From an uncultured Alphaproteobacteria bacterium (GTDB taxonomy: Bacteria > Pseudomonadota > Alphaproteobacteria > Rhodobacterales > Rhodobacteraceae): DNA of 64,000 nucleotides. The notes under the pieces are model-generated. The model was not told the origin of the DNA and ran no database searches. It saw only the letters and a list, made by a program, of their open reading frames with translations. Made by a program: the position numbers and the translations under genes. The DNA is taken from assembly GCA_913031285.1 (NCBI GenBank), contig CAJWEI010000004.1:1-64000 (forward strand), given 5' to 3'. Of this stretch, positions 5,695-57,831 are shown piece by piece; position 1 is the first letter of the stretch, and every line of letters begins with the position of its first letter.

Positions 5695-6585
5695 CTAGGC
5701 CACCTCTTGACCAAGAGCAGCCTGATACAGTTGAAACCAGCTTTGTCTATCTAATTTGATTTTCAGAGCGTCAGAGATGCGCGCGATCCGGTCAAGGTTA
5801 TTAGTGCCTAATACTGGGAGAATTTTTGCAGGGTGTGCCAACAAAAATGCGATGGCCACTGCGGCGCGATCAACGCTGTACTGCACTGCAATATCATCCA
5901 TGACTATCCCTAAGTTCGATATATCACTAATCAAACTTCCACCCCCCAACGGCGACCATGCCATTATAGGATGGCCTTCTCTCTGGTGGAATGCTAGATC
6001 ACCGTTTGTAAATGGGGATATTTCAGCAAGGCTAATCTCGATCTGATTGGTAACCAGCTGGTTTTTCATAGCTGACTGAAGTAGGTCCCAATCCCATGGT
6101 TTAAAATTTGAAACACCTATTGCACTAACTTTTCCAGATGCTACCAATTCATCTAGTGCTGCACCAGTGACATGATGATCCATCAGCGGATCGGGTCGAT
6201 GAATGAGCAATAAATCAATATTTTCAATGGCCATTTCTAAAAGTGACGCATCAACACTTGCGTGTATATGATCTCGCGAAGTGTCATAGTGCTTTACACG
6301 TGCGCCAGCGTGGCGGCCTGCATCTACAACAATGTCACATTTGCTAACAATTTCCATTTTTGAACGAAGCGCGGGATTTGCTTTCAGTGCTCCGCCAAAA
6401 ACCGTTTCGGCCGTGTATCCGCCGTAAATGTCGGCTTGGTCGAAAGTTGTAATTCCATGATCCAACGAAGTTTGAATTTTAGCCTCAACATGATTTGGTG
6501 AGGTATTGGAATCATCGGCCAGGCGCCACATACCATAAATTAGCTGACTGAATTCAAGTGTGTTTGTAATTGAAATACGGTTCAT
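5695..6585 (-). CDS. Aldo/keto reductase
   Basis: 296 aa, (beta/alpha)8 NADPH-dependent reductase of the YdhF-like branch. It has 'ITTFDQADIYGGYTAE' with the catalytic Asp and Tyr near residue 50, the Lys in 'MEIVSKCDI', the His of 'IDLLLIHRPDP', and 'IGVSNFKPWDWDLLQ'. The ATG overlaps the monooxygenase stop by one base (TAATG), and the flavin reductase follows without a gap, so the three are translated as a unit. In the known sulfo-SMO set the equivalent enzyme (SmoB/SquF) reduces 6-oxo-glucose to glucose; that fits here but is inferred from context only. Confidence 0.93.
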   Translation of the reverse strand: MNRISITNTLEFSQLIYGMWRLADDSNTSPNHVEAKIQTSLDHGITTFDQADIYGGYTAETVFGGALKANPALRSKMEIVSKCDIVVDAGRHAGARVKHYDTSRDHIHASVDASLLEMAIENIDLLLIHRPDPLMDHHVTGAALDELVASGKVSAIGVSNFKPWDWDLLQSAMKNQLVTNQIEISLAEISPFTNGDLAFHQREGHPIMAWSPLGGGSLISDISNLGIVMDDIAVQYSVDRAAVAIAFLLAHPAKILPVLGTNNLDRIARISDALKIKLDRQSWFQLYQAALGQEVA

Positions 6586-7739
6586 TATTTACGCTTTCCT
6601 GCGCCAAGCGGCGTCATCGGTGTTTCGTTAGGGATACGTCCGTAGGCATGAGGAAGAGAGCACGTCTCAAGCTCAGGTAAGACGCGATGGCCAAAATGCA
6701 TTGCTTCTTCAATATGTGGATAACCAGAAAATATAAAGGAGCGTATACCGATTTTTTTGTAATTCTCTATCTTCGAAAGTACTTGATCTGTCGAGCCAAC
6801 GAGGGCTGCACCACAGCCTGAGCGCGCGCGTCCAACCCCTGTCCATAAGCTTGGTTCAATATAGCCAAATTTATCTGCATGATCACGGTTCTTGGATTGA
6901 TGGGACACGCCCAAAGATGTCGAGTCTAGAGCGCGCTCTCGTATCATCTTGCCATATTCATCATCAAGTTTTGCGACAATATGGTCTGCATACTCTTTTG
7001 CTTCAATCTCTGTATCGCGCACAATCATATGGACGCGCAGACCGTAATCTAATGTGCGTTCATACTTGTTTGCGACCTGATTTACAGCTTTCATGCGGCC
7101 TACAAGATCCAGAATCTTTTCAGGCCACATAAGATATACGTCACAGTGCTGGCCACATAATTCAAGCGCATCGGGAGAGTAACCGCCAAAGTACAATAAC
7201 GGTCCACCCGTTTGATACGGTTTAGCGGGATCAGTGGTGAGGTTTATGAAATTATAGATTTCGCCCTCATAATCAATTTTGTCTTTTGTCCATGCCTGTT
7301 TAAGAATTTCTACGACTTCCCGTGAACGGCGGTACCGAAATGAGCTGTTTTCTTTTTGTCCGGGAAAATCCGAGCTGATGATATTAACGGTCAACCGTCC
7401 TTCAAGCATATGATCCAAAGTTGCTAGAGTGCGTGCCAACATGATGGGTTGCATCTCGCCGCAACGCACAGCAGCGAGCATATTAATCTTGCTAGTAATC
7501 GGTGCGCAACCGGCGACAAACGACAGCGTATCTTGCCCAACTTGATATGAAGACGGGCACAAAATATTACGAAAGCCTAAGTCTTCCGAAGTCTTTACGA
7601 TTTGTGAACAATGCTCCCAGCTTGATCTTAAGTCGCCGTCTGGGATACCAAGAAATTGATAGTCATCCGAGCACAGAGCAGAGAACCAAGAAACTTCGAC
7701 TTCATTGAGGTTTTTAGAGGTTATCGGCACAACAGTCAT
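6585..7739 (-). CDS. LLM-class flavin-dependent monooxygenase (SsuD/SmoC-like)
   Basis: 384 aa from the ATG at 7739, which has a GGAG ribosome site seven bases upstream; a longer frame to 7781 lacks one. The protein follows SsuD alkanesulfonate monooxygenase: 'GFRNILCPSSYQVGQDT', 'MLARTLATLDHMLEGRLTVNIIS', 'YFGGYSPDALELCGQHCDVYLMW', 'VGRARSGCGAALVGSTDQV' and 'FSGYPHIEEAMHFGHRVLPEL'. These enzymes use FMNH2 and O2 to cleave a C-S bond, releasing sulfite and an aldehyde. With its own flavin reductase and an aldo/keto reductase it forms the enzyme set of oxidative sulfoquinovose desulfonation. Taurine-like or alkanesulfonate substrates remain possible. It is divergent from a GntR regulator, a likely local control. 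Confidence 0.92.
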   Translation of the reverse strand: MTVVPITSKNLNEVEVSWFSALCSDDYQFLGIPDGDLRSSWEHCSQIVKTSEDLGFRNILCPSSYQVGQDTLSFVAGCAPITSKINMLAAVRCGEMQPIMLARTLATLDHMLEGRLTVNIISSDFPGQKENSSFRYRRSREVVEILKQAWTKDKIDYEGEIYNFINLTTDPAKPYQTGGPLLYFGGYSPDALELCGQHCDVYLMWPEKILDLVGRMKAVNQVANKYERTLDYGLRVHMIVRDTEIEAKEYADHIVAKLDDEYGKMIRERALDSTSLGVSHQSKNRDHADKFGYIEPSLWTGVGRARSGCGAALVGSTDQVLSKIENYKKIGIRSFIFSGYPHIEEAMHFGHRVLPELETCSLPHAYGRIPNETPMTPLGAGKRK

Positions 7740-7799: not shown

Positions 7800-8561
7800 A
7801 TGGTGTATCAATTTTTTCCTTTTCAACTATTGGAAGACAATTCTTTGTCAACTGACTTTAAGCACAGCAGCTCGAGCGCGCTGCCTCGATTTATCCAGAT
7901 TAGCGAATTCTTGGTCCGTGAGATTGCGGCTGGTCGTTTGGTCGATGGAGAGCGTCTTGCGCCAGAAAGACACATGGCTAAAAGCCTAAATGTTTCTGTT
8001 GGCACCCTAAGGAAATCGCTCAAAGAGTTAGAAAAAATAGGGCTTCTTGAGAGTATTCAGGGCTCTGGGAATTACGTCCGTCAGAACCAGATCGATGGGA
8101 GCGTATATGCGATGTTTCGTCTTGAATTACTCGAGGGAGGTGGTCTTCCAAAGGCTGATATTTTAGATGTTGCCTTGTATGAAAAACCGTCAGACCTACC
8201 AGAATTTGGGACATCAAAAAGAGCATCTCGGGTAAGGCGACTTCGGTATTTGAATAATACAATTATAGCTATTGAGGAAATCTGGCTAGATCAAAGTGCA
8301 GGCGTGATAAACTCGATTGGAATTTCTGATTCGCTTTATCAGTACTATCGCACGCATTTAGGACTCTGGATTTCTCGGGCTGAGGATTATGTCGGTATTT
8401 GCAAAGTGCCCTTTTGGGCGCCAGCAGCTTTTATGCTCTCACCGGGCACTTTAACTGGCTTCATTGAAAGGTTTAGCTGGGGTTCTGAGGTGGCTCCGGT
8501 TGAATATTCGCGGACTTGGTTTGATACAAATCAGGCATACTATGTACAGAGGCTCAAATAG
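7800..8561 (+). CDS. GntR-family regulator with UTRA domain
   Basis: 253 aa. A winged helix of GntR type covers roughly residues 35-105 ('RFIQISEFLVREIAAGRL', 'GERLAPERHMAKSLNVS', 'LKELEKIGLLESIQGSGNYVR'), followed by a UTRA effector domain to the end ('LRYLNNTIIAIEEIWLD', 'VEYSRTWFDTNQAYYVQR'). UTRA proteins usually sense a sugar or sugar-phosphate-like metabolite. It is transcribed away from the monooxygenase operon with about 60 bp between starts and lies 8 bp before a Gfo/Idh/MocA gene, so it probably controls both directions. No strong ribosome site precedes the ATG, so translation could begin slightly further in. Confidence 0.93.
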   Translation: MVYQFFPFQLLEDNSLSTDFKHSSSSALPRFIQISEFLVREIAAGRLVDGERLAPERHMAKSLNVSVGTLRKSLKELEKIGLLESIQGSGNYVRQNQIDGSVYAMFRLELLEGGGLPKADILDVALYEKPSDLPEFGTSKRASRVRRLRYLNNTIIAIEEIWLDQSAGVINSIGISDSLYQYYRTHLGLWISRAEDYVGICKVPFWAPAAFMLSPGTLTGFIERFSWGSEVAPVEYSRTWFDTNQAYYVQRLK

Positions 8562-8569
8562 GAAGGCCA

Positions 8570-9664
8570 ATGAGTATGATAAACTATGGAATGATCGGTT
8601 GTGGGATGATGGGGCATGAGCATTTGCAGAATATAGCATTGCTTGAAGGTACCAATATATCAGTCATTTTTGAACCCGATTCAGGTATGGCAAAATCGGC
8701 TGTTTTGCTTGCACCTAACACTATGTTAGTTCGTAGCTTGGATGAATTGTTAGACTTTCCTAATCTGGATTGCTTGGTCATTTCTAGCCCAAACTACTGT
8801 CACTTTAAACAGCTGCAGCGAATTGCACAAAAATCCCCTCTCCCTATACTGGTTGAGAAGCCTCTTTTTACATCAGCTGATGATCAAATCGCAATTTTGG
8901 AATTTTCAAAGTCCTATCCTGCATCGGTCTGGGTTGCTATGGAATATCGTTACATGCCACCAATCGCTGTCTTTGTGGAAAAAGTTGATAGTATTACAGG
9001 CGGGGTCAAAATGCTCACAATTCGTGAGCACCGGTTTCCATTTCTCAAGAAAATTGGGAATTGGAACCGTTTTAACAATAAAACTGGTGGTACATTTGTT
9101 GAGAAATGCTGTCATTTCTTCGATCTTATGCGTTTGATTATAAAATCTGAGCCGGTGCGAATCATGGCAAGTGCAGGACAAGACGTTAATCACCTTGAGG
9201 AAAGATACGAGGGTCAGGTTCCAGATATCTTGGATAATGGCTATGTGATTGTTGATTTTGCAAATGGTGCAAGATCAATGTTAGAGCTTTGCATGTTTGG
9301 GGAAGGTTCCCAGTATCAGGAAGAAATCTCTGCTGTTGGCTCAAAGGGAAAACTGGAAGCAAAAGTGCCTGGCCCTGGCCGGTTCTGGCCCAAAGAATTG
9401 GGTGAGCCTCCGGTTCCATTACTTATAGAAAGTCCGCGCTTTCCAAAAAGGCCACTGACAAGTGAGGTGGTTGTTGATCCGAATATTTTGAATGCCGGTG
9501 ATCATAACGGCGCAACTTTCTACCAACACAAGCTATTCTTGGATATGGTTAAAGGGCAAAAAAGTACTCCGGACGTCAGTTTAGGAGATGGATATAAGGC
9601 TGTTATTATGGGAATGGCTGCTCAGGAAAGTGCTGCTAAGGGTAGGGCTGTAGAGTTTGATTAG
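8570..9664 (+). CDS. Gfo/Idh/MocA-family NAD(P)-dependent protein
   Basis: 364 aa with an N-terminal Rossmann fold ('YGMIGCGMMGHEHLQNI'), the family's Glu-Lys-Pro signature in 'LPILVEKPLF' near residue 100, and the catalytic region 'GGTFVEKCCHFFDLMRL' near 175-190, then the C-terminal alpha/beta domain. Members oxidise sugars or inositols, and one recently described branch (GH188) acts as NAD-dependent sulfoquinovosidase within sulfo-SMO clusters. That branch would fit the neighbouring monooxygenase, flavin reductase and aldo/keto reductase, but I cannot test membership by eye. An AGGAAGG ribosome site precedes the ATG. The gene follows the GntR regulator closely and is probably co-transcribed with it. 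Confidence 0.93.
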   Translation: MSMINYGMIGCGMMGHEHLQNIALLEGTNISVIFEPDSGMAKSAVLLAPNTMLVRSLDELLDFPNLDCLVISSPNYCHFKQLQRIAQKSPLPILVEKPLFTSADDQIAILEFSKSYPASVWVAMEYRYMPPIAVFVEKVDSITGGVKMLTIREHRFPFLKKIGNWNRFNNKTGGTFVEKCCHFFDLMRLIIKSEPVRIMASAGQDVNHLEERYEGQVPDILDNGYVIVDFANGARSMLELCMFGEGSQYQEEISAVGSKGKLEAKVPGPGRFWPKELGEPPVPLLIESPRFPKRPLTSEVVVDPNILNAGDHNGATFYQHKLFLDMVKGQKSTPDVSLGDGYKAVIMGMAAQESAAKGRAVEFD

Positions 9665-16052: not shown

Positions 16053-17591
16053 TCAACGTAATCCACTTGAGCCCGACAGCAGGCCCGTGGCAGCTGCTTT
16101 TGAGGCTTCCAGAGTGATATCCGTCGCAAACCCAAAATAGATTGTCGAAAACGCCATTAAATACAGAGGAATGAGCATCGAAAGAGGAGCCTCTTTGGCC
16201 GTCATACCCTGAATTGGCGCAGATAAATAGAGCGTTTCGATCATGCGCCACACATAGGCAACAGCAATGATTGATGATAGGACGATCAAGAATGCAAAAC
16301 TCCACCAGCCGTTTTCAAATGCGGCCTGTACAAGGATCCATTTGCTCACAAAGCCGGCCGTTCCGGGAATGCCGATGAGAGACATGCCACCAATTACCAT
16401 TGCTGCACTGGTCCAAGGCATGGATTTGCCAAGGCCTTTGAGTTTGTCGTACGAGGTTGCTCCAATGGCAAAGACAAAGCAACCTGCTCCCATGAAAAGA
16501 GCAGCCTTGCTAATGCCATGATTGAACAAATGAATAATTGTTGCGGTCAATCCGGTGTGTGAAAAGGATCCGATCCCCAACAACATATATCCTAGCTGAG
16601 CGACACTGGAATGCGCCAACATCCGTTTGATGTCGCGTTGATAAAAAGCTGAAATAGATGCTGCAAACATTGCAATTAATGCAAACGGAATGATTACGGC
16701 TTCAAGTATTTTGATTTCTACCAAAAATTCTGGCTGAAACACGGTGAACATAAATCTTAGCAGCACATAGATCGCCATCTTCGTTGCAGTACCGGCAAGA
16801 AAGGCAGATACTGGCGAGGGGGCGTAAACGTATGCATTTGGGAGCCATAGATGCAAAGGATAAATTGCCGCTTTCAGTCCAATCCCCACCACGATGAAGG
16901 CAAATGCTGCTCGAATTGTCCTACTGTCGCGTTGTTCAGAAATTCGCTCGGCAAGATCAGCCATATTTAAAGTGCCCGTCGCCATGTAAAGAAAGCCAAT
17001 GCCGATCACAAAAAAAGTTGCGCCGATTGTCCCCATGATAAGGTAGTTATAAGAAGCCGTGAGGGCACGTTTATCTCGATATGAACCCTGCGCGACAAGA
17101 ACGTATGTCGACAATGAAGAGATTTCAAGAAATACGAAAACATTAAATGCATCGCCAGTGATCACAACGCCCAATAGCCCTGTGAGGCACAAAAGATATA
17201 GAGCGTAAAAGAGGGTGTGGCTTTTCTCGGGCACTTCTGCCTTCAGGCTGCCACGCGCATAAGCAAGAACGACGCTGCTTATAGCTGATATTAAAAATAG
17301 GACAAATGCATTGGCTGTGTCCACTCTGTATTCAATGCCAAGGGGGGGAGCCCACCCGCCCATATGATATGAAATCTCGCTCCCGTCGATGACACTCTGC
17401 AGCAACAAAACCGAAACGGCCAGTGATCCCAGGCTTGCTAGGAATGCAATTGGCCACGCCAGTGAACGCACACCAAAGAATACCACCAAAGGAGCTGCAA
17501 CAAACGGAATTAGAACTTGCAATGCTGGAAGCTGATCAGAGAGTGTCAAAGCGATATGATGAACCGGTTCAGAGCTGATTGCAGAAGCCAT
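16053..17591 (-). CDS. mrpD: Na+/H+ antiporter subunit D (MrpD/MnhD)
   Basis: 512 aa, normal for MrpD. Visible marks are the helix with conserved Glu 'NVFVFLEISSLSTYVLVA', 'GIGLKAAIYPLHLWLPNAYVYAPSPVSAFL' region around residue 235 (Lys and His), 'IKRMLAHSSVAQLGYMLLGIG' and 'HGISKAALFMGAGCFV'. It is an integral inner-membrane subunit carrying a proton path. The ATG overlaps the MrpC stop by one base (TAATG). Of the three MrpD-like proteins in this operon it is the one whose place right after MrpC fits the canonical order. Confidence 0.93.
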   Translation of the reverse strand: MASAISSEPVHHIALTLSDQLPALQVLIPFVAAPLVVFFGVRSLAWPIAFLASLGSLAVSVLLLQSVIDGSEISYHMGGWAPPLGIEYRVDTANAFVLFLISAISSVVLAYARGSLKAEVPEKSHTLFYALYLLCLTGLLGVVITGDAFNVFVFLEISSLSTYVLVAQGSYRDKRALTASYNYLIMGTIGATFFVIGIGFLYMATGTLNMADLAERISEQRDSRTIRAAFAFIVVGIGLKAAIYPLHLWLPNAYVYAPSPVSAFLAGTATKMAIYVLLRFMFTVFQPEFLVEIKILEAVIIPFALIAMFAASISAFYQRDIKRMLAHSSVAQLGYMLLGIGSFSHTGLTATIIHLFNHGISKAALFMGAGCFVFAIGATSYDKLKGLGKSMPWTSAAMVIGGMSLIGIPGTAGFVSKWILVQAAFENGWWSFAFLIVLSSIIAVAYVWRMIETLYLSAPIQGMTAKEAPLSMLIPLYLMAFSTIYFGFATDITLEASKAAATGLLSGSSGLR

Positions 17592-18028
17592 TAACTGTTG
17601 TCTCCCGAGGTCAGTTGATTACCATTCAATTCATAAAAAGAAACCTTAGTTTCTTGCTCTGCAATCTCGTGCTCTTCGATGGTATGATACTCTTCACGGA
17701 TCCTAATGATTAAGGCTAATCCAAGCGAAGTTGTTGCAATGCCGACAACAATTGCTGTCAGGATCAGAACATGCGGTAGCGGGTTTGAGTAAAGCATCTC
17801 GGGATCAATTTTCATATCCATAGGGAAAATAGGCGCAGTACCGCCCTCAACCTTGCCGATTGAGATATATAACATAAAAACAGATGTCTGAAATATGTTC
17901 AGTCCAACTATTTTCTTCACCAGATTTCCCTTTGCGATAACTACATAGAGCCCCGTCATCATCAAAATAATGAAAAACCAGTAATTCAAATGTCCTAAAA
18001 TAAAATCAACTGTCATTTCTTCAAACAT
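17591..18028 (-). CDS. mrpC: Na+/H+ antiporter subunit C (MrpC/MnhC, NuoK-like)
   Basis: 145 aa from ATG 18028, which overlaps the MrpB stop (TGATG) and has GAGG upstream; a TTG two codons earlier is possible. Three helices of the NuoK type are visible: 'NYWFFIILMMTGLYVVIAK', 'KIVGLNIFQTSVFMLYISIG' and 'LPHVLILTAIVVGIATTSLGLALIIRI', the last with the family's 'LTAIVVG' run. A charged 30-residue tail follows. The protein is a small membrane subunit of the antiporter complex. Confidence 0.93.
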   Translation of the reverse strand: MFEEMTVDFILGHLNYWFFIILMMTGLYVVIAKGNLVKKIVGLNIFQTSVFMLYISIGKVEGGTAPIFPMDMKIDPEMLYSNPLPHVLILTAIVVGIATTSLGLALIIRIREEYHTIEEHEIAEQETKVSFYELNGNQLTSGDNS

Positions 18029-18468
18029 CACCAATCCTCGTCACCCAGACTTGGAGCGCGTGCTGCAAATGCATAATAAACGGCAACCATTACGCCGGTC
18101 ACTGTTACCCCGACGCCAAGCTCGACGATTAGTATTCCAAGATGTTGGCCGTGGACAGGATGATGCGGATCAATGACTGCATAATCAAGGTAGCCATATC
18201 CATAAAACAAGCTATAGATACCTGTCCCAGCATAAATCAAAACTCCCAGTGCAACCACTTTATGGACTAACCAAGGAGGGAACACTGCTTTTACTTTTTC
18301 AAGAGTAAAGACTATACCATAAATTATAAACCCAGCTGCCATTATAACACCGGCCTGAAAACCGCCGCCTGGAGAATAGTCGCCATGAAATTGCACATAA
18401 AGAGCAAACAAAAATATTGTTCCAACCAGAAGCTTAGTGATCACTCGCAGGATAAGGTGGTGTCTCAT
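18028..18468 (-). CDS. mrpB: Na+/H+ antiporter subunit B (MrpB/MnhB)
   Basis: 146 aa with four helices and the MnhB signature 'ALYVQFHGDYSPGGGFQAGVIMAAGFI' around residues 21-47, then 'LGILIVELGVGVTVTGVMVAVYYAF' near the C-terminus. The ATG overlaps the stop of the DUF4040 subunit (ATGA). It belongs to the membrane module of Mrp antiporters. Confidence 0.94.
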   Translation of the reverse strand: MRHHLILRVITKLLVGTIFLFALYVQFHGDYSPGGGFQAGVIMAAGFIIYGIVFTLEKVKAVFPPWLVHKVVALGVLIYAGTGIYSLFYGYGYLDYAVIDPHHPVHGQHLGILIVELGVGVTVTGVMVAVYYAFAARAPSLGDEDW

Positions 18469-19004
18469 GCGGAACCCCCCTCTTGATCCGGATCGTCTTC
18501 GTCTTCCTTACGACGTCGACCGAGACCGCTCATGAGCATCAGCACCCCAATCCCAGCGGTAAATACAACGGCCGTTTCACCTAAAGTATCATAGCCCCGG
18601 TAGCTGGCCAAAATAGCGGTAACGGCATTTGGCACATCAATTTCTTTTGGAATACGCTCAAAATACTCTGGACCTACATGAGTTTGCGCCGGTGCATCTG
18701 GCGAGCCGAAATTCGGCATGTCCAAAGTTCCATAGACCATTGCAGCACCTGTCACGAGCACAACTAATAGCGGAACTATCGGTGTTTTTTTCTCACTGCG
18801 TTCAGATCGCGAGGTTAAGGCCAGAGTTCCTAGCATTAAAACTGTTGATATCCCTGCGCCAACAGCCGCTTCGGTAAATGCCACATCGACGGCGTCAAGA
18901 GTAATAAAAAGCAAAGCCGAAAGGAGGCTGAAAACACCTGAAAGTGTCACAACGGCAAATAAGCTTCTAGTGCGAACAACGGCAAGGGCTGTGATCACAA
19001 GCAT
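18465..19004 (-). CDS. MrpA C-terminal-like subunit: DUF4040 (MbhD) plus MbhE fused
   Basis: 179 aa from the first ATG. Residues 1-65 are the DUF4040/MbhD domain with the conserved 'LDAVDVAFTEAAVGAGIS'; residues about 120-165 ('AILASYRGYDTLGETAVVFTAGIGVLML') match MbhE, so two domains found at the end of long MrpA proteins are here a separate gene. The tail is strongly acidic. In-frame codons upstream of the ATG still read like the family N-terminus ('PEIANLIEISLFA') but no ATG, GTG or TTG lies between them and an upstream TGA, so the true start is uncertain. Gene order E-F-G-this-B-C-D is that of archaeal Mbh/Mrp modules. Confidence 0.87.
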   Translation of the reverse strand: MLVITALAVVRTRSLFAVVTLSGVFSLLSALLFITLDAVDVAFTEAAVGAGISTVLMLGTLALTSRSERSEKKTPIVPLLVVLVTGAAMVYGTLDMPNFGSPDAPAQTHVGPEYFERIPKEIDVPNAVTAILASYRGYDTLGETAVVFTAGIGVLMLMSGLGRRRKEDEDDPDQEGGSA

Positions 19005-48984: not shown

Positions 48985-49440
48985 ATGCAACGTATAGCAT
49001 TAGCGTTTTTTATTACGATAATGACTGCAGCTTCATCTTTTTCCGAGGTCGTAAAACCTAGTGAAGTTGTTTTCCAAGATGGTGCGGTCATGGAAAGCTT
49101 GACTGCGCAATTGGGCGATCCTGCAAGTGGAAGAAAAATATTCATGAACAGAAAGCAAGGTAATTGCCTTGCATGCCATATGAATTCTGAAATGCTTGAT
49201 CAGTCTTTTCACGGTGAAGTTGGCCCGGTCTTAGACGGTGTTGCTGATAGGTGGGAAAAGGCTGAATTAAGAGGAATGCTGGTAAACTCTAAAATGATGT
49301 TTGAAGGCACCATAATGCCGGCCTTTTATCGCGATAGCGGATACTCAAGGAACTTAAAAAAGTTTGTTGGTAAGACGATTTTGAGCGCTCAACAAGTGGA
49401 AGATGTTCTCTCCTACCTTTTGACACTTAAAGAAAACTAA
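48985..49440 (+). CDS. soxX: SoxX, cytochrome c subunit of SoxXA
   Basis: 151 aa with signal peptide ('QRIALAFFITIMTAASSFSE') and one heme site 'CLACH' at 61-65; 'HGEVGPVLDGVADRW' and 'MPAFYRDSGYSRNLKKFVGKTILSAQQVEDVLSYLLTL' provide the axial Met region and final helix of the SoxX family. SoxXA forms the sulfur-carrier adduct by oxidatively joining thiosulfate to SoxY. GGAGGGAAT precedes the ATG. It opens the structural block soxXYZA. Confidence 0.96.
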   Translation: MQRIALAFFITIMTAASSFSEVVKPSEVVFQDGAVMESLTAQLGDPASGRKIFMNRKQGNCLACHMNSEMLDQSFHGEVGPVLDGVADRWEKAELRGMLVNSKMMFEGTIMPAFYRDSGYSRNLKKFVGKTILSAQQVEDVLSYLLTLKEN

Positions 49441-49454
49441 AATGGGTGATTTAC

Positions 49455-49877
49455 ATGCACATTTCTCGTAGAAATTTAATTTTGACCGCAAGCTCTGCTT
49501 TAGCCATAGGATCGATATGTGGCTCGCAAGCTAATGCATCGCTTGTCGATGAACATACTAGTGCTTTTACAGGCGGTGCTGAACTGGGTACAGGTGTAAT
49601 TGAGCTTGACGCACCTGAAATTGCAGAAAATGGTAATACCGTTCCAATTTCTGTCTCTGCTCCTGGAGCGGTCAGCATTATGCTACTTGCGGCGGGTAAT
49701 CCGGTTCCAGCAGTCGCAACGTTTAACTTTGGTCCACTCAGTGCCGCAAGGTCTGGTTCGACTCGTATAAGATTAGCAAAGTCTCAAGATGTGATTGCTG
49801 TCGCAAAAATGGAAGACGGTACGTTTCAAACAGCGCAAGCCACTGTAAAGGTGACTATTGGTGGCTGTGGTGGTTAG
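49455..49877 (+). CDS. soxY: SoxY, sulfur carrier subunit
   Basis: 140 aa from ATG 49455; an in-frame GTG lies three codons earlier. A Tat-like signal with 'HISRRNLILTASSALAIG' is followed by the SoxY Ig-like domain ('ELDAPEIAENGNTVPISVSA') and the carrier end 'VTIGGCGG', whose Cys holds the sulfur intermediates. The twin arginine suits export as a folded SoxYZ pair. soxZ follows 15 bp later. Confidence 0.96.
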   Translation: MHISRRNLILTASSALAIGSICGSQANASLVDEHTSAFTGGAELGTGVIELDAPEIAENGNTVPISVSAPGAVSIMLLAAGNPVPAVATFNFGPLSAARSGSTRIRLAKSQDVIAVAKMEDGTFQTAQATVKVTIGGCGG

Positions 49878-49892
49878 AAGAGGAGATAAATA

Positions 49893-50222
49893 ATGGCAAA
49901 GGGAGTTAAACCTAGAGTCAAGGTCCCTAAAACGGCATCTGCCGGGGAAACAATTGTTATTAAAACACTGATCAGCCATAAAATGGAATCTGGCCAGCGT
50001 AAGGATTCAGATGGAAATAAAATACCACGGTCCATCATAAATCGGTTCACGTGCGACTTTAACGGGCAAAGCGTTATCGATGTTAATTTAGAGCCAGCAA
50101 TTTCAACAAACCCTTACTTCCAATTTGAGTCTGTTGTTCCAGAAACTGGAGAGTTTAAATTTACGTGGTATGACGATGACGGCTCGGTATACGAAAAAGT
50201 TAAATCAATTTCAGTGACATAA
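49893..50222 (+). CDS. soxZ: SoxZ, sulfur-carrier partner
   Basis: 109 aa without its own signal peptide, as usual because it rides out with SoxY. 'PRVKVPKTASAGETIVIKTLISHKMESGQRKD' and 'FTCDFNGQSVIDVNLEPAISTNPYFQF' are typical, ending 'EFKFTWYDDDGSVYEKVKSISV'. GAGGAGAT precedes the ATG. Confidence 0.96.
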   Translation: MAKGVKPRVKVPKTASAGETIVIKTLISHKMESGQRKDSDGNKIPRSIINRFTCDFNGQSVIDVNLEPAISTNPYFQFESVVPETGEFKFTWYDDDGSVYEKVKSISVT

Positions 50223-50247
50223 TTTGATTTAGCAGGAGGAGATAATT

Positions 50248-51081
50248 ATGAATTCGTGGAAACTCTTAATGGCATCCACCATAACCATTGCTGCTTCTAT
50301 TGCGGCAGCTAATGAAGATGCAAAGCTATCAATTGAGGGATTAGATATACCTGTACGAGTGTCTGTTCAATCTCACACACCTGAAATCGATGAAGTTCGT
50401 TCTGGATGGACATTTCGCAAAAGCGAAACGCAAGATCTTCAAAGGGACGACTTTGATAACCCCGCTTTTGTGTTTGTTGATCAAGGCATAGATCTTTTCG
50501 ACAAAATAGATGGAACAGCGGGGAAATCTTGTTCAAGCTGCCACTCCGATATGAACAGTTTTAAGGGCTTACGAGCTTCGATGCCGAGAATTGCGAATGG
50601 TCAGATTGAAACGATGGAAGATCTGGTGAACGGTTGTAGAACGGAGCGCATGGGTGCGGAGTCGTGGAAATGGTCTTCTAAAAACATGACTGCCGTGACT
50701 GCGCTGATTGGTTTAGAATCTCGTGGTATGCCCATAAAAGTTAAAATGGATGGTGATGCTGCTGAGTTTTGGCAAAAGGGTAAGGACGTGTACTACGCTA
50801 GAGTTGGACAACTTGATATGTCGTGCGCAAATTGTCATGAAGAAAACTATGGCAATATGATACGTGCGGACCATTTATCGCAGGGACAAATAAATGGCTT
50901 TCCAACCTATCGACTGAAAAATGCAAAATTGAATTCAATTCACGCGCGGTTTAAAGGTTGTATGAAAAATATTCGTGCTACGCCTTACAAGGAAGGTGGA
51001 CCTGAATTTAGAGCTTTAGAGCTTTATTTGGCATCTCGGGGCAACGGTCTATCAGTTGAAACACCATCTGTGAGAAACTAG
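50248..51081 (+). CDS. soxA: SoxA, diheme-type cytochrome subunit of SoxXA
   Basis: 277 aa with signal peptide. Two heme motifs are intact, 'CSSCH' at 95-99 and 'CANCH' at 193-197, so this is the two-heme form; the Cys near 238 in 'ARFKGCMKNIRATPY' is the persulfide active-site ligand. AGGAGGAGA gives a very strong ribosome site. A symmetrical terminator follows the stop, separating soxXYZA from soxB. Confidence 0.96.
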   Translation: MNSWKLLMASTITIAASIAAANEDAKLSIEGLDIPVRVSVQSHTPEIDEVRSGWTFRKSETQDLQRDDFDNPAFVFVDQGIDLFDKIDGTAGKSCSSCHSDMNSFKGLRASMPRIANGQIETMEDLVNGCRTERMGAESWKWSSKNMTAVTALIGLESRGMPIKVKMDGDAAEFWQKGKDVYYARVGQLDMSCANCHEENYGNMIRADHLSQGQINGFPTYRLKNAKLNSIHARFKGCMKNIRATPYKEGGPEFRALELYLASRGNGLSVETPSVRN

Positions 51082-51082
51082 T

Positions 51083-51111
51083 AAAAAAACCAGCTTATAG
51101 CTGGTTTTTTT
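51083..51111. terminator. Intrinsic terminator after soxA
   Basis: A-run plus ACCAGCT, loop TAT, AGCTGGT plus T-run: a near-perfect hairpin flanked by A and T runs so that it could work in both directions. It lies one base after the soxA stop and before soxB, suggesting partial uncoupling of soxBCDEF from soxXYZA, or trimming of message levels. Confidence 0.85.
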
Positions 51112-51151
51112 AAAGATTAAAACATTCAATAAATTGCATGTGAGTAAGCTG

Positions 51152-52855
51152 ATGATATCACGGAGAGATTTTTTACAATTAGCAATGTCGACCACCGCTA
51201 TCTACGGTGCCTCTTCTTTTGGAAATTGGGGTAAACTTTCGGCGCAGCAATTAATTACACAAGATAAGCTATTGGAGTTTGAGACTTTTGGTAATGTCTC
51301 GCTCATTCATATCACAGATATTCATGCTCAAATGAAGCCAATTTATTTTAGGGAGCCAGAAATAAACACAGGTGTAGGTGCCAATAGAGGAAAAGTTCCT
51401 CACATAACGGGCGCAGATTTCCGCAGGTTTTATGGTATTAAAGACAAAAGTCCATCTGCGTACGCTCTGACGTTCGATGATTTTTCTTCCCTTGCCAGCA
51501 CTTATGGAAGAGTTGGTGGTTTGGATCGGGTATCCACTATTATAAACTCAATTCGGAGTGATCGGCCTGACGCATTACTACTTGATGGCGGTGATACTTG
51601 GCATGGAAGCTACACATGTCATCAAACTCAAGGTCAGGACATGGTAAATGTCATGAATGCTTTGAAACCAGATGCCATGACATTTCATTGGGAATTTACT
51701 TTGGGGTCTGATCGGGTGAATGAAATTGTGGGAAAACTACCCTTTGCTGCGCTAGGTCAAAATATTTTTGATTCTGAATGGGATGAGCCTGCTGAGTTGT
51801 TCCCGCCATACAAATTTTTTGAGAGAGGTGGAGTTAAAATTGCGATCATTGGGCAGGCTTTCCCCTATATGCCAATTGCAAACCCTGGATGGATGTTCCC
51901 GGAGTATTCATTTGGCATTAGAGATGAAAATATGCAGTCAATGGTTGATGAAGTTCGCGCTGCGGGCGCGGAACTTGTTGTTTGTTTGAGCCATAATGGA
52001 TTTGATGTGGACAAGCAGATGGCTGGGCGCGTAGACGGCATAGATGTTATTCTATCTGGGCATACGCACGATGCTCTACCTGAACCTATCTTAATTGATA
52101 AAACGATTATTGTTGCCTCTGGTTCTAATGGGAAGTTTGTCTCTCGTGTTGACCTTGACGTAAAGAATGGGCAAATGATGGGATTTCGACATAAACTAAT
52201 TCCAGTTTTTGCAGATGTTATTGCTCCAGACCCTTATATTTCTAATTTGATAGAAAAGCAGCGTGCGCCCTATGCCTCTCAACTTTCTGAAGTAATAGGC
52301 AAAACTGCAGATGATCAAACGCTTTACAGGCGTGGAAATTTCAATGGTACTTGGGATGATTTAATTTGTGACGCATTGCTTAATGAACGTGAGGCAGATA
52401 TTGCACTATCCCCAGGTGTCAGATGGGGCCCGTCCATTTTACCTGGACAAGAAATTACTCGTGAGGATATTTGGAACGTGACATCCATGAGTTATCCGCA
52501 AGCCTATCGAACGCAAATGACGGGTGAATTTTTGCACATCGTTTTAGAAGATGTGGCGGATAACCTATTCAATCCTGATCCTTATTACCAGCAGGGTGGA
52601 GATATGGTTCGAGTTGGCGGGCTGGGTTATCGAATTGATATTTCCAAACCTCAAGGTCAACGCATAAGTGATATGACTTTGCTCAAAACTGGTGCGACGA
52701 TTGATCCCATAAAATCCTATTGGGTCGCCGGGTGGGCAAGTGTTAATGAAGGGACTGAGGGACCAGAGATTTGGGATGTGGTCGAAAATTATATCCGCAA
52801 ACAAAAGACGATTTCACTATCACCAAACAATAGTGTTGAAGTTATCGGTACATGA
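51152..52855 (+). CDS. soxB: SoxB, dimanganese sulfohydrolase
   Basis: 567 aa from ATG 51152; in-frame GTG 51140 is possible. A twin-arginine signal 'MISRRDFLQLAMSTT' directs Tat export. The 5'-nucleotidase-like metallophosphatase domain shows metal ligands in 'LIHITDIHAQMKPIYF', 'LLLDGGDTWHGS', 'LVVCLSHNGFD' and 'VILSGHTHDALPEPI', and a C-terminal domain follows. SoxB releases sulfate from the SoxY-bound S-sulfonate. It begins 40 bp after the soxA terminator and precedes soxCD. Confidence 0.96.
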   Translation: MISRRDFLQLAMSTTAIYGASSFGNWGKLSAQQLITQDKLLEFETFGNVSLIHITDIHAQMKPIYFREPEINTGVGANRGKVPHITGADFRRFYGIKDKSPSAYALTFDDFSSLASTYGRVGGLDRVSTIINSIRSDRPDALLLDGGDTWHGSYTCHQTQGQDMVNVMNALKPDAMTFHWEFTLGSDRVNEIVGKLPFAALGQNIFDSEWDEPAELFPPYKFFERGGVKIAIIGQAFPYMPIANPGWMFPEYSFGIRDENMQSMVDEVRAAGAELVVCLSHNGFDVDKQMAGRVDGIDVILSGHTHDALPEPILIDKTIIVASGSNGKFVSRVDLDVKNGQMMGFRHKLIPVFADVIAPDPYISNLIEKQRAPYASQLSEVIGKTADDQTLYRRGNFNGTWDDLICDALLNEREADIALSPGVRWGPSILPGQEITREDIWNVTSMSYPQAYRTQMTGEFLHIVLEDVADNLFNPDPYYQQGGDMVRVGGLGYRIDISKPQGQRISDMTLLKTGATIDPIKSYWVAGWASVNEGTEGPEIWDVVENYIRKQKTISLSPNNSVEVIGT

Positions 52856-52886
52856 AAGCATTAGGGAATAAGGAGGGAAAATTATT

Positions 52887-54173
52887 ATGTCGAAAGTGAA
52901 CAAAAGAAATACTCAAACACGCCGTTCTTTCCTCCGAGGCGCTGCTTTATCTAGTGCAGGAGCTGTTGTTGCAGTTTCCTCAACGGCCAAAGAACAAAGT
53001 GAAGCCTTGATTACAGAAGCCCAATCTTGGGCTCAAGAACTCGCTGATGGAGTGGATGTTACGCCGTACGGACTTCCAATTGAACACGAAGGTGATGTTA
53101 TCAGAAGAAATGTTCCTTGGCTAACCGCGGATGCAGTTAGTTCTGTCAACTTTACCCCGATTCATGCGCTCGATGGTACAATTACGCCTCAGGGCTGCGC
53201 GTTCGAGCGACATCACTCAGGTGCAATTGACCTGAAAAAGGAAGATTATAGGCTTATGATAAATGGCCTAGTCGATAAACCGATGATATTTACTTATTTT
53301 GATTTAGAAAGATTCCCAAGAGAAAACCACGTATATTTTTGTGAGTGTGCTGCAAATACAGGGATGGAATGGGCGGGTGCACAGTTAAACGGCGCCCAAT
53401 TTACGCATGGTATGATCCATAATATGGAATATACCGGCGTTCCACTGCGAACTATTTTAAATGAAGTTGGGTTGATTGCTGCCGGTGATCTGAAAGATAA
53501 GTGGGTTTTTGTTGAAGGTGCTGACGCATCTTCAAATGGCCGATCTATTCCAATGGAAAAGGCTCTAGACGATGTTTTCGTAGCATTCAAGGCAAATGGA
53601 GAGGCATTACGAAAAGAGCATGGATACCCTGTGCGATTAGTTGTTCCTGGATGGGAAGGCAATATGTGGGTCAAGTGGTTAAGGAGAATTGAAGTAACTG
53701 ATGGACCCGTCGAATCGCGGGAAGAAACTAGCAAATACACGGATACTCTTTCCGATGGTATAAGTAGAAAATGGACTTGGGCGATGGATGCCAAGTCTGT
53801 GGTGACAAACCCTAGCCCACAAATGCCAATTAAGCATGGATCCGGTAGCCTTTTAATTTCTGGACTTGCTTGGTCTGGTCATGGAGCAATCAAGCGCGTT
53901 GATGTTTCCCTAGATGGCGGAAAGAATTGGAGAATAGCTAGTCTATCGAAGCCGGGTGAAAAAATGGCTTTAAGCCGGTTTTACTTTCATACTGATTGGG
54001 ATGGCGAAGAAATGTTATTGCAGTCAAGGGCAATTGATGAGACGGGTTACGTTCAACCGACCAAAACACAGCTCCGTGCAGTTCGCGGTTTGAACTCAAT
54101 ATATCATAATAATTGTATTCAAACATGGCATGTTGGAAAAAATGGATCAGTAGAAAATGTTGAAGTTTCATAG
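52887..54173 (+). CDS. soxC: SoxC, molybdopterin subunit of sulfane dehydrogenase
   Basis: 428 aa with Tat signal 'TRRSFLRGAALSSAGAVV'. The sulfite-oxidase fold carries the Moco Cys in 'VYFCECAANTGMEWAGAQLNG' near residue 153, 'HGMIHNMEYTGVPLRTIL', and 'LVVPGWEGNMWVKWLRRIEV' near 252, with the Mo-co dimerisation domain at the end. With SoxD it oxidises SoxY-bound sulfane sulfur by six electrons, allowing full conversion of thiosulfate to sulfate without sulfur deposits. AAGGAGGG precedes the ATG. Confidence 0.96.
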   Translation: MSKVNKRNTQTRRSFLRGAALSSAGAVVAVSSTAKEQSEALITEAQSWAQELADGVDVTPYGLPIEHEGDVIRRNVPWLTADAVSSVNFTPIHALDGTITPQGCAFERHHSGAIDLKKEDYRLMINGLVDKPMIFTYFDLERFPRENHVYFCECAANTGMEWAGAQLNGAQFTHGMIHNMEYTGVPLRTILNEVGLIAAGDLKDKWVFVEGADASSNGRSIPMEKALDDVFVAFKANGEALRKEHGYPVRLVVPGWEGNMWVKWLRRIEVTDGPVESREETSKYTDTLSDGISRKWTWAMDAKSVVTNPSPQMPIKHGSGSLLISGLAWSGHGAIKRVDVSLDGGKNWRIASLSKPGEKMALSRFYFHTDWDGEEMLLQSRAIDETGYVQPTKTQLRAVRGLNSIYHNNCIQTWHVGKNGSVENVEVS

Positions 54174-55188
54174 AGCGGCTTTTTTATCGGCCGCACTTTT
54201 AATTGCGGCAGCCCCGATGTTGGCAGACAGTTACGGATTAGGTCGTCCCGCTACGATGAAAGAAATCGCAGCTTGGGACTGGAATATTATGCCTGATGGA
54301 GCGGGTATGCCAATTGGCTCTGGTGACGCGATAGATGGAGAAGAAGTCTTTGCGGAAAAATGTGCTTCGTGCCATGGCGATTTTGCAGAAGGGATGGGGC
54401 GTTGGCCGGAGCTTGCAGGTGGCATAGATACATTAGATGAGGATGATCCTTTAAAAACTGTAGGCTCTTATTGGCCCTACATGTCAACTGTTATCGACTA
54501 TGTAAAGAGATCAATGCCTTATGGTTATGCTGGGTCCTTAACTGATAATGAAACATATGCCATTGTTGCTTATATTCTTTATTCAAATGACCTAATTGAA
54601 GATGATTTTGTTCTTTCAAATCATAACGCGTTAGATGTTGAAATGCCAAATGCAAATGGATTTATAATTGATGACCGAGAAGAAACAGAATATGCAAATT
54701 GGAGAACTGATCCTTGCATGTCCAATTGCAAAGACACTGTGAAAGTTACCATGCGGGCAAGAGTTTTGGATGTTACACCTATAGAAGAAGCGTCGAGCGA
54801 CTCGCAACTGGTGCCTGAAGCAAGTCAATCCGGAGAAGTTTCAGTAATACAAATAAATGCTGTAAATCAAGAGTTAGCAGATTCTGGGAAAAAAGTTTTC
54901 AAAAAATGTAAATCATGCCACCAAATTGGCGAAAAAGCTAAAAACCGATCAGGTCCCATCTTAAATAACATGGTTGGTCATCCAGCTGCATCAGTAAACG
55001 GCTATAAATATTCAAAATCATTCAAATCTGCAAGAGAAGCAGGGTTAATTTGGACTGAGGAAGAACTAGCTAAGTTTCTTACAAAACCAAAAAAATATCT
55101 TAAAGGTACCAAGATGTCTTTTGCGGGTTTAAAAAAAGAAGATGATACCAAAGCAGTGATAGAATATCTTAAACTATACTCAGAATGA
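54157..55188 (+). CDS. soxD: SoxD, diheme cytochrome c subunit of sulfane dehydrogenase
   Basis: 343 aa with signal peptide; the ATG overlaps the soxC end by 17 bp. Heme sites are 'CASCH' at 69-73 and 'CKSCH' near 248, in two cytochrome c domains ('RSGPILNNMVGHPAASVNGYKYSKSF' in the second). It accepts electrons from SoxC. Its stop overlaps the soxE start (ATGA). Confidence 0.96.
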   Translation: MLKFHRAAFLSAALLIAAAPMLADSYGLGRPATMKEIAAWDWNIMPDGAGMPIGSGDAIDGEEVFAEKCASCHGDFAEGMGRWPELAGGIDTLDEDDPLKTVGSYWPYMSTVIDYVKRSMPYGYAGSLTDNETYAIVAYILYSNDLIEDDFVLSNHNALDVEMPNANGFIIDDREETEYANWRTDPCMSNCKDTVKVTMRARVLDVTPIEEASSDSQLVPEASQSGEVSVIQINAVNQELADSGKKVFKKCKSCHQIGEKAKNRSGPILNNMVGHPAASVNGYKYSKSFKSAREAGLIWTEEELAKFLTKPKKYLKGTKMSFAGLKKEDDTKAVIEYLKLYSE

Positions 55189-55544
55189 TGATGTTAAAAA
55201 GCTTGAAAATATTACTCATAAGTATTCTACTGGGGTTATGTAGTGAAGTTTATGCAGGTGACGAAAATACAGATGACTTTGCGGTTGATGAAGAATTACT
55301 TAAATTAAAAGGTGATCCTGAGTATGGAGAATATCTCTCTGGCGATTGTACAGCCTGTCATCAAATAGATGGCAGCTATAATGGAATTCCGTCAATCGTA
55401 GGGTGGGACGAAGAAAGTTTTATCTGGGTAATGCATGAATATAAAGAAAAATATAGGGAACACCCAGTAATGCAAATGATGGCGGGTAGATTAGCTAACG
55501 ATGAGATCGCTGCGCTTGCAGCTTATTTCGCAACTTTAGAATAA
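55185..55544 (+). CDS. soxE: SoxE-like small c-type cytochrome
   Basis: 119 aa with signal peptide ('SLKILLISILLGLCSEVYA') and one heme site 'CTACH' at 55-59, followed by 'MQMMAGRLANDEIAALAAYFATL'. Its size and position before a flavocytochrome-type flavoprotein make it the cytochrome partner of SoxF, as in Paracoccus, although Paracoccus SoxE has two hemes and this one shows only one. Confidence 0.85.
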   Translation: MMMLKSLKILLISILLGLCSEVYAGDENTDDFAVDEELLKLKGDPEYGEYLSGDCTACHQIDGSYNGIPSIVGWDEESFIWVMHEYKEKYREHPVMQMMAGRLANDEIAALAAYFATLE

Positions 55545-55570: not shown

Positions 55571-56830
55571 ATGACATTGGATAGACGAACATTTATGGGA
55601 ACTGCAGCAGCGGCCACTATTGCCGCACCGTCAGTTTTTGCTGGAGCACACGGTAAGCCTCGTGTTGTAGTAGTTGGAGGAGGAGCTGGCGGCGCCACGG
55701 CAGCTCGTTATGTTGCTAAAGATAGTAAAGGAGCGATTGACGTCACGCTCATTGAACCAACTCGTTCCTATTATACGTGCTTTTTTTCAAACCTGTATCT
55801 GGGTGGTTTTAAAGAAGTAGAAGATATTGGTCACTCATATGGTAAAATAGCTGCAGCCGGCGTTAACGTCGTGCACGATTGGGCAGTTGGCGTAGATCGT
55901 GATAATAAAACCGTATCGCTTGCTGGGGGATCATCTGTTCCATACGATAAACTAATTTTATCTCCGGGTATCGACTTTGTTGATGGCGCAGTAGACGGAT
56001 GGGATTTGTCGTCGCAAAATGCAATGCCACATTCATATAAAGCGGGCTCTCAGACGGAACTTCTTAAAGCGCAATTGGCGTCTATGCCTACTGGTGGTGT
56101 ATTTGCTATGGTTGCGCCACCCAATCCATATCGTTGTCCTCCAGGTCCATATGAGAGAGTTTCAATGATAGCACATCATTTTAAGATGAATAATCCAACA
56201 GCAAAAATAATTGTTGCGGATCCTAAACCAAAATTCTCTAAAATGGGTTTATTCCAAGAGGGTTGGGCTAACCACTACGACGGTATGATCGACTGGATAG
56301 GTAAAGACTTTGGTGGTGGTGAAGTTTCTGTAGACCCTGGCGCGATGACGGTTACTATCGATGGAGAAACAACTAAGGTTGACGTTTGCAATGTAATTCC
56401 CGCAATGAAAGCTGGTGGTATCGCACATCAGGCAGGTGTTACTGAAGGAAACTGGGCGCCAGTAAATGCTGCTGATATGAGCTCAAAGGTTGACCCGGAC
56501 ATACATGTGCTTGGAGATTCCTCACAACAAGGCGACATGCCAAAGTCTGGATTCTCTGCAAATAGTCAGGCAAAGGTATGTGCGAATGCTGTTCGAGGAG
56601 CTTTGACGGGCTCGAAAGTCTTTCCAGCTAAATTTTCAAACACATGTTGGTCTTTGGTTGCAACCAATGATGGCATTAAGGTTGGCGCGACGTATGAGGC
56701 AACAGAGGAAAAGATTGCTAAGATTGAAGGTTTTGTGTCTAAGACTGGTGAGAGTGCGGAACTGCGTAAAGCTACGTATGAAGAATCTGAGGGCTGGTAC
56801 TCGGGAATTACGGCCGACATGTTCGGATAA
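55571..56830 (+). CDS. soxF: SoxF, sulfide dehydrogenase flavoprotein
   Basis: 419 aa with Tat-like signal 'LDRRTFMGTAAAATIAAP'. FAD binding at 'PRVVVVGGGAGGATAARYVAK' near residue 30, redox Cys in 'YYTCFFSNLYLGG' near 70 and 'CPPGPYERVSMIA' near 195, and the FCSD C-terminal domain with 'FSNTCWSLVATNDGIKVGATY'. It oxidises sulfide or stimulates the Sox system in the periplasm, passing electrons to SoxE. GGGAGGAAA precedes the ATG and a terminator follows. Confidence 0.95.
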   Translation: MTLDRRTFMGTAAAATIAAPSVFAGAHGKPRVVVVGGGAGGATAARYVAKDSKGAIDVTLIEPTRSYYTCFFSNLYLGGFKEVEDIGHSYGKIAAAGVNVVHDWAVGVDRDNKTVSLAGGSSVPYDKLILSPGIDFVDGAVDGWDLSSQNAMPHSYKAGSQTELLKAQLASMPTGGVFAMVAPPNPYRCPPGPYERVSMIAHHFKMNNPTAKIIVADPKPKFSKMGLFQEGWANHYDGMIDWIGKDFGGGEVSVDPGAMTVTIDGETTKVDVCNVIPAMKAGGIAHQAGVTEGNWAPVNAADMSSKVDPDIHVLGDSSQQGDMPKSGFSANSQAKVCANAVRGALTGSKVFPAKFSNTCWSLVATNDGIKVGATYEATEEKIAKIEGFVSKTGESAELRKATYEESEGWYSGITADMFG

Positions 56831-56838
56831 AAAACCTT

Positions 56839-56870
56839 GCGAGGCTATTTCTGTGATAGCCTCGCTTATT
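56839..56870. terminator. Intrinsic terminator between soxF and the convergent MBL gene
   Basis: A perfect ten-base stem GCGAGGCTAT (56839-56848) and ATAGCCTCGC (56856-56865) with a seven-base loop, AT-rich on both sides (AAAAAACC before, TTATTC after). It lies eight bases past the soxF stop, and its right end touches the stop codon of the opposite gene, so it probably serves both. Confidence 0.85.
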
Positions 56871-57831
56871 CAAATTCCATTTGTTCATAAACCTGACCGG
56901 CATTCCGCGTTGCTAGCTGTTCAAAAGTGTCCATATGAGCATAGAGTGATTGATCCACGTAATAGGCATCTTTCAGATCTCCACCATTTTCCAAAAGAAT
57001 GCTTATTTGGTTTCGTAAATGTGCTAGGTAGTCACGCGTGTAGCGTCGCACTTGAGCCATATTTGTTGGATGACCATGACCTGGTATCACATAGGTAGCA
57101 TTAAGGGCTTCGAACTTGGTATCCCAAGTCTCTATCCATTCTGATACGATTGTCTCTGGAAAAATTGGAAGCATCCGCTCATGAAACGCCATATCACCTG
57201 CAATAACTAATTCCTGATCTGGCAACCAAACAGTAACATCTCCGGGACTGTGTGATGGGCCAAGGTACAAAACCTCTATCCGAAACGCACCAATTTCAAC
57301 ATTATAATGATCTTTAAAGGTTTGTGTCGGGCCCTGTATTCGACTACCTTTTGATTTTTCGCGATTATACCGCTTCATGTGTTCCAAAATCTGAAAACTA
57401 CGCTCTTCAAATTCATGTGCTGCATCTGCATGTGCAAGCACCGGAACCCCTTGGTCCACCCAGTAGCTGTTTCCAAGCATAGCGTGACCTTGGCCATTTT
57501 CATTGATTACGAGAACTACTGGTTCAGTTGTGATCTGCTTTATCTCTTCATGAAGGGCTTGGGCCAATATATTGGCCGCTCCCGCGTTGACTACAATAAC
57601 ACCAGCGCCAGTAACGATAAAGGTCAGGTTATTATTGTGGCCAGTATTTTCATAGGTTGGCGGTGCTGTTGCACCGATTGCAGAAAAAACACCTGGGATC
57701 ACTTCTACAGGCTTTTGATAAAGGGGAGATTGTGGGTATTGGTCGGGAATATCTTCACTTCCAGATGTTGGACCGGTTGCAGTCAAGCATGAGAGCCCAA
57801 GTGAGAAAAAAAAACGGGATATGCGATCCAT
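56866..57831 (-). CDS. SoxH-like metallo-beta-lactamase-fold protein lacking the HxHxDH motif
   Basis: 321 aa from ATG 57831; a TTG eight codons upstream is also open. A signal sequence with Cys ('FFFSLGLSCLTATG') suggests periplasmic location. Late fold motifs are kept: 'LGPSHSPGDVTVWLPDQ', 'LVIAGDMAFHERMLPIF' and 'TYVIPGHGHPTNM'. Where related SoxH/quinoprotein-relay hydrolases have 'N.H.H.DH..GN', this protein reads 'VINENGQGHAMLGNSYW' (residues 109-124), so three of four first-site ligands are replaced. It may be a non-zinc or altered-metal descendant. It converges with soxF and sits where soxH occurs in Paracoccus-type clusters. Confidence 0.85.
   Translation of the reverse strand: MDRISRFFFSLGLSCLTATGPTSGSEDIPDQYPQSPLYQKPVEVIPGVFSAIGATAPPTYENTGHNNNLTFIVTGAGVIVVNAGAANILAQALHEEIKQITTEPVVLVINENGQGHAMLGNSYWVDQGVPVLAHADAAHEFEERSFQILEHMKRYNREKSKGSRIQGPTQTFKDHYNVEIGAFRIEVLYLGPSHSPGDVTVWLPDQELVIAGDMAFHERMLPIFPETIVSEWIETWDTKFEALNATYVIPGHGHPTNMAQVRRYTRDYLAHLRNQISILLENGGDLKDAYYVDQSLYAHMDTFEQLATRNAGQVYEQMEFE

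Follow-up and report, generated by a model that had tools for sequence, protein, structure and literature searches.

The soxH gene carried by the 64,000-nucleotide stretch of DNA analysed here (the window) was identified by sequence comparison as SoxH itself, a protein accessory to sulfur oxidation in bacteria, in an ordinary intact copy, and the stretch NENGQGHAMLGN, which occupies the HxHxDH site of MBL-fold hydrolases in its product, is on the same alignments a constant mark of SoxH proteins as a family and not damage. The initial annotation had spoken of a dismantled zinc motif, a description that has to be given up because the variant is the conserved signature of true SoxH, that of Paracoccus pantotrophus included. 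To our knowledge, SoxH has stood in the list of sox genes for two decades with no role assigned. It is annotated as an MBL metallo-hydrolase, and the function of soxH has been described as unknown (PMC11237559). Within the literature searched, no paper was found on soxFGH or on P. pantotrophus SoxH and zinc.

Identity of the window gene and its sox surroundings

The soxH coding sequence (56866–57831, minus strand) runs uninterrupted from its ATG to the stop codon and encodes a predicted periplasmic MBL-fold protein of 321 amino acids, an assignment that draws on the reading frame, the orthologues and an AlphaFold2 model. Its N-terminus was judged by eye to resemble a signal peptide (approximately residues 1–24; 57760–57831, minus strand; pLDDT about 50), in agreement with the intact frame and signal sequence of the initial annotation. 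The protein passed the MBL superfamily profile PF00753, scoring 31.7 bits against a gathering cut-off of 22.7. Structure prediction had also been suggested at the outset, and the model built from 54 orthologues (pLDDT 88, pTM 0.85) has the MBL fold. Its nearest solved structures are MBL-fold proteins, namely 8d2z (Z 32.1), 6uxu (Z 30.9), and CphA and Sfh-I (Z about 27).

The window soxH adjoins soxXYZABCDEF. The core cluster soxXYZABCDE (48985–55544, plus strand) was assigned by NCBIfam equivalogs, domains and gene order, with soxX at 48985, soxY at 49446, soxZ at 49893, soxA at 50248, soxB at 51134, soxC at 52887, soxD at 54157 and soxE at 55185, all on the plus strand. SoxX, Y, Z, A, B and C scored above the NCBIfam equivalog cut-off, while soxD and soxE were called from cytochrome domains and gene order. 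Including soxV and soxW, named from domains and order, the plus-strand cluster reads soxVW-XYZABCDEF. It ends with soxF (55571–56830, plus strand), coding for the flavoprotein of flavocytochrome c sulfide dehydrogenase (PF21706, PF09242). soxF and soxH are convergent, and the same order is repeated in the nearest relative.

The window SoxH shares 64–65% identity with Paracoccus SoxH over 93–96% of the protein, and one well supported clade unites the two. P. pantotrophus is reportedly the organism in which SoxH received its name. The SoxH proteins of P. pantotrophus, P. ferrooxidans and P. versutus carry the same NENGQGHAMLGN, HSPGD, GD and PGHG as the window protein; since Paracoccus SoxH itself has NGQGHA, true SoxH is a protein without HxHxDH. 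The SoxH identity given in the initial annotation was thus upheld by orthology to Paracoccus SoxH and by linkage to sox genes. In the annotated P. ferrooxidans record soxH is the last gene of soxVWXYZABCDEFGH, directly after soxG. In Paracoccus soxH therefore lies behind soxG on the same strand, whereas in the window it is convergent to soxF and soxG was not found.

Other MBL-fold proteins are found close to the name SoxH. SoxG, a sox neighbour of the same fold, has an intact TH[GA]HPDH (THGHPDH in P. ferrooxidans) and forms a family distinct from SoxH. The Paracoccus SoxG (17072–17983 of its locus) has a Tat-like N-terminus, SRRHFLAASAAA, and SoxH a Sec-like one, which would imply that the two differ in their routes of metal loading. 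The quinoprotein relay system zinc metallohydrolases 1 and 2 (TIGR04558 and TIGR04559, “SoxH-rel-PQQ”) share the fold and match the window SoxH over nearly its full length, but membership was rejected at 131.1 against a cut-off of 300 and 142.8 against 280, respectively. The HxHxDH relatives found (e.g. THMHPDH) fell in clades other than SoxH; the owners of this motif are SoxG, the PQQ-associated “SoxH-related” proteins and a further MBL clade whose sox loci lie outside the Alphaproteobacteria. SoxH was also detected in another class of the phylum, in a sox locus where it reads NENAQGHSMLGN and lies on the soxB side (17875–18843, plus strand of locus L181), and a separate HxHxDH protein of the MBL fold (ISHYHADHVYGLQ; 8553–9428, minus strand) stands beside soxC in that same locus. 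Five more non-alphaproteobacterial sox loci (L186, L187, L188, L189 and L191) contain soxB and an HxHxDH MBL protein. Sox clusters thus harbour no fewer than two different MBL families that go by the name SoxH or something close to it, and NGQGHA against HxHxDH offers a simple sequence test to tell true SoxH from other proteins called SoxH or SoxH-like.

Across related genomes, SoxH was present in 29 of 44 SoxB-positive but only 2 of 57 SoxB-negative relatives (Fisher p = 4e-12, kinship ignored). Read the other way, 29 of the 31 SoxH-bearing genomes contain SoxB, and both exceptions are incomplete assemblies (55% and 86%). Among the loci of the best 80 of at least 541 SoxH relatives, soxB lies within 10 kb of soxH in 52, and it is still present in 22 of the 25 genomes in which the 10 kb around soxH contain none of the core sox genes. 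SoxH was missing from 15 SoxB-positive relatives, which means that thiosulfate oxidation does not depend on it. An additional SoxB with 75% identity to the window copy was noted elsewhere in the window's genome (G000:C89:5525-7207); the genome perhaps has two sox clusters, or the contig is a contaminant.

Conservation of the variant motif

Residues 112–117 of the window SoxH read N-G-Q-G-H-A (57481–57498, minus strand) and are followed by MLGN, as the initial annotation had described in reporting HxHxDH exchanged for NxQxHA ahead of LGN. In a gapless alignment anchored on the solved B2 lactamases (INTNYHTDRAGGNAYW) and on HxHxDH relatives such as NSHSHADHWLGN, N112, Q114, H116 and A117 correspond to MBL positions 116, 118, 120 and 121. 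The later fold motifs are likewise present as first described, namely HSPGD with H194, GD with D213 and PGHG with H252.

The HxHxDH of canonical dinuclear MBL hydrolases is absent from the window SoxH, and every orthologue has the NGQGHA equivalent in its place. More specifically, Q114, G115 and H116 were kept in all 116 distinct SoxH sequences, P. pantotrophus among them, and ENGQGHA in 30 of 30 loci (57–100% identity) drawn from the genome of the window and from related genomes. A scan of GTDB genomes returned at least 541 SoxH relatives, the best 80 of which all contain GQGH and, in 78 cases, ENGQGHA. The signature E-N-G-Q-G-H-A-x-L-G-N, defined in the present work, is found in the window protein. 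Conservation of NxQxHA among relatives, a question raised by the initial annotation, was thus answered by a variant common to all SoxH orthologues aligned; with the motif invariant across the family, it is no peculiarity of the window's genome.

The initial annotation had also left room for an early pseudogene, a reading prompted by the missing HxHxDH and by nothing further. The dN/dS ratio between the window SoxH and its nearest orthologue (94% identity) was 0.107, or 0.084 for the mature part, and ranged from 0.02 to 0.10 for other pairs of the family; no internal stops were found in the SoxH orthologues of relatives. The low ratios and stop-free orthologues indicate that soxH is not decaying. 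Relatives with HxHxDH together with relaxed selection had been named as the outcome that would speak against the idea of a natural variant; what was found is NxQxHA in all relatives and a dN/dS of 0.11. Conservation and purifying selection together rule out decay of soxH or local loss of the motif, and we assign next to no probability to a pseudogene or a motif degraded in this genome. Another genome contains a second SoxH-like gene that is interrupted by an in-frame TAG and may be a genuine soxH pseudogene (G434:C4:404377-405060).

Origin of the motif and residues of the predicted metal site

A second clade, about 35% identical to SoxH, reads [ND]TG[GS]QDHRW[LMF]GN and shares the glutamine (QDHR clade; with SoxH, the Q-type sequences). 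In a tree computed without the motif columns, the SoxH and QDHR sequences fall on one side of a single branch (95/87) and each group forms its own clade (100/99 and 98/93, respectively), although these support values are approximate and the H-types include some long branches that join one another. The Q-type or H-type label required a single change across the 52 sequences. As SoxH and QDHR remain joined with the motif masked, the switch from HxHxDH to the Q-type probably happened once, anciently.

No sox genes were found near QDHR relatives in the four loci checked. Two QDHR loci (L068, 8326–12137, and L031, 3458–8116) share a cassette coding for ArsR, an ArsP-type permease, thioredoxin, OsmC and a CDF transporter, which in one case was carried by a conjugative Pseudosulfitobacter plasmid; the other QDHR loci examined had no shared neighbour gene. 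A Caballeronia MBL relative (6001–6834 of its locus) has THQAPEF at the motif, followed by GPASTPGD and PAFG, and its metal residues are truly lost.

Thirty-six positions were at least 98.5% conserved in 127 distinct Q-type sequences. Of the 13 histidines of the window SoxH only three are invariant in this set, H116, H194 (57250–57252, minus strand; in the H-x-P-G-D motif) and H252 (57076–57078, minus strand; in PGHG), together with D213 (57193–57195, minus strand), D198, Q114 and R219. When the motif region is aligned without gaps to the B2 lactamases, H116, H194, H252, D213 and Q114 take MBL positions 120, 196, 263, 221 and 118, with D213 and H252 as predicted metal ligands. The histidines at metal positions and D213 are unchanged down to about 30% identity. 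In the first site both motif ligands are replaced, and with N at position 116 and Q at 118 this site would be lost. In the second, D221 and H263 are kept and position 120 holds His instead of Asp. That precisely the metal positions are invariant is not expected of a dead site, and the residue pattern is, as far as sequence can tell, that of a rebuilt site and not of drift. The new metal site that the initial annotation had considered for this one protein is a plausible reading for the entire SoxH family, and the pattern suggests a mono-metal enzyme with one ion at the second site.

Precedents for such an enzyme exist within the fold. Chlorothalonil dehalogenase Chd (6uxu) matches SoxH along its full length and has a mononuclear catalytic zinc, one per monomer, with Asp116, His117, His257 and Asn216 as reported ligands (PMC12784990). 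The B2 lactamases are active with a single zinc, the second-site one (PMC7356002), which together with Chd makes a mono-metal enzyme in the MBL fold an established possibility. CphA and Sfh-I resemble SoxH in fold, in Asn at position 116 and in GNxYW after the motif, but B2 enzymes have H118, D120 and C221 where SoxH has Q, H and D. Membership in subclass B2 was rejected, as only N116 and H263 matched and the score was 55.3 bits against a cut-off of 240. The Burkholderia cenocepacia MBL protein 8d2z, also a full-length fold match, reads HYHAVR and shows the opposite loss (D120). No solved precedent was found for His at position 120 as a ligand. We tentatively suggest, with rather less than even confidence, that the Q-type (SoxH and QDHR) represents an undescribed MBL site of two His and one Asp, with His120 and Gln118, which would serve mono-zinc hydrolysis or Fe(II)-dependent sulfur oxidation in the periplasm.

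Proposed function and competing explanations

We lean, by a narrow measure, towards SoxH being an active periplasmic MBL-fold hydrolase with a rebuilt one-metal site that acts on an intermediate of the Sox pathway. Its dinuclear HxHxDH site would have been converted to [N/G]-x-Q-x-H-[A/R], probably in one ancient event. One metal ion would then occupy the second site, with H116, D213 and H252 as its ligands (2-His/1-carboxylate), and H194, Q114 and N112 may line the emptied pocket and orient a water or an oxyanion; the mono-zinc B2 enzymes are the comparison for such a site, with H194 nearby. The substrate could be a sulfur species or a SoxY-bound intermediate from the Sox pathway.

SoxH might instead be a conserved, metal-free pseudo-enzyme whose role would be to bind or scaffold a partner, for instance SoxG, as in the pairing of catalytic and non-catalytic MBL proteins known from CPSF73 and CPSF100. 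Two metal ligands are indeed lost, and soxG was found near soxH in 53 of the best 80 of at least 541 loci, mostly directly upstream and with its TH[GA]HPDH intact. A metal-free protein sits poorly, however, with three histidines and D213 kept invariant to about 30% identity. In addition, soxG was not found near soxH in the remaining 27 of these 80 loci, some on truncated contigs, nor was SoxG found in the window's genome, by a search run without a positive-control genome. An obligate SoxG-SoxH pair was rejected as unlikely on these cases, and SoxH probably acts without SoxG in the window's genome; we consider the pseudo-enzyme unlikely overall. Somewhat less probable still is a redox-active metal, for example Fe(II), bound by H116, H252 and D213, with SoxH oxidising or oxygenating a sulfur compound and no hydrolysis taking place. 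These three ligands correspond to a facial triad, and the gene context is one of sulfur oxidation. The MBL-fold persulfide dioxygenases (ETHE1/PDO) bind iron in the other of the two metal sites, through two His and one Asp, but SoxH does not have both of the ETHE1 ligands at 116 and 196, so that an iron site here would differ from that of ETHE1.

The least probable of these functions, to which we give little credence, is that of a SoxB substitute hydrolysing sulfate off SoxY, as proposed for SoxH of Sulfurimonas and Sulfurovum from Campylobacterota expression data (PMC9122950, PMC10045233). SoxB is present in the window and in nearly all SoxH-bearing genomes, so a substitute would be unneeded, and the HxHxDH MBL protein found beside soxB outside the Alphaproteobacteria belongs to a clade different from SoxH. 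Given a window that has its own SoxB and a name, SoxH, that spans more than one family, the Campylobacterota proposal should not simply be carried over to this protein. For the hydrolase that we favour, in which true SoxH would have a family-wide rebuilt active site, Q114, H116, H194, D213 and H252 are the residues named as targets for mutation.
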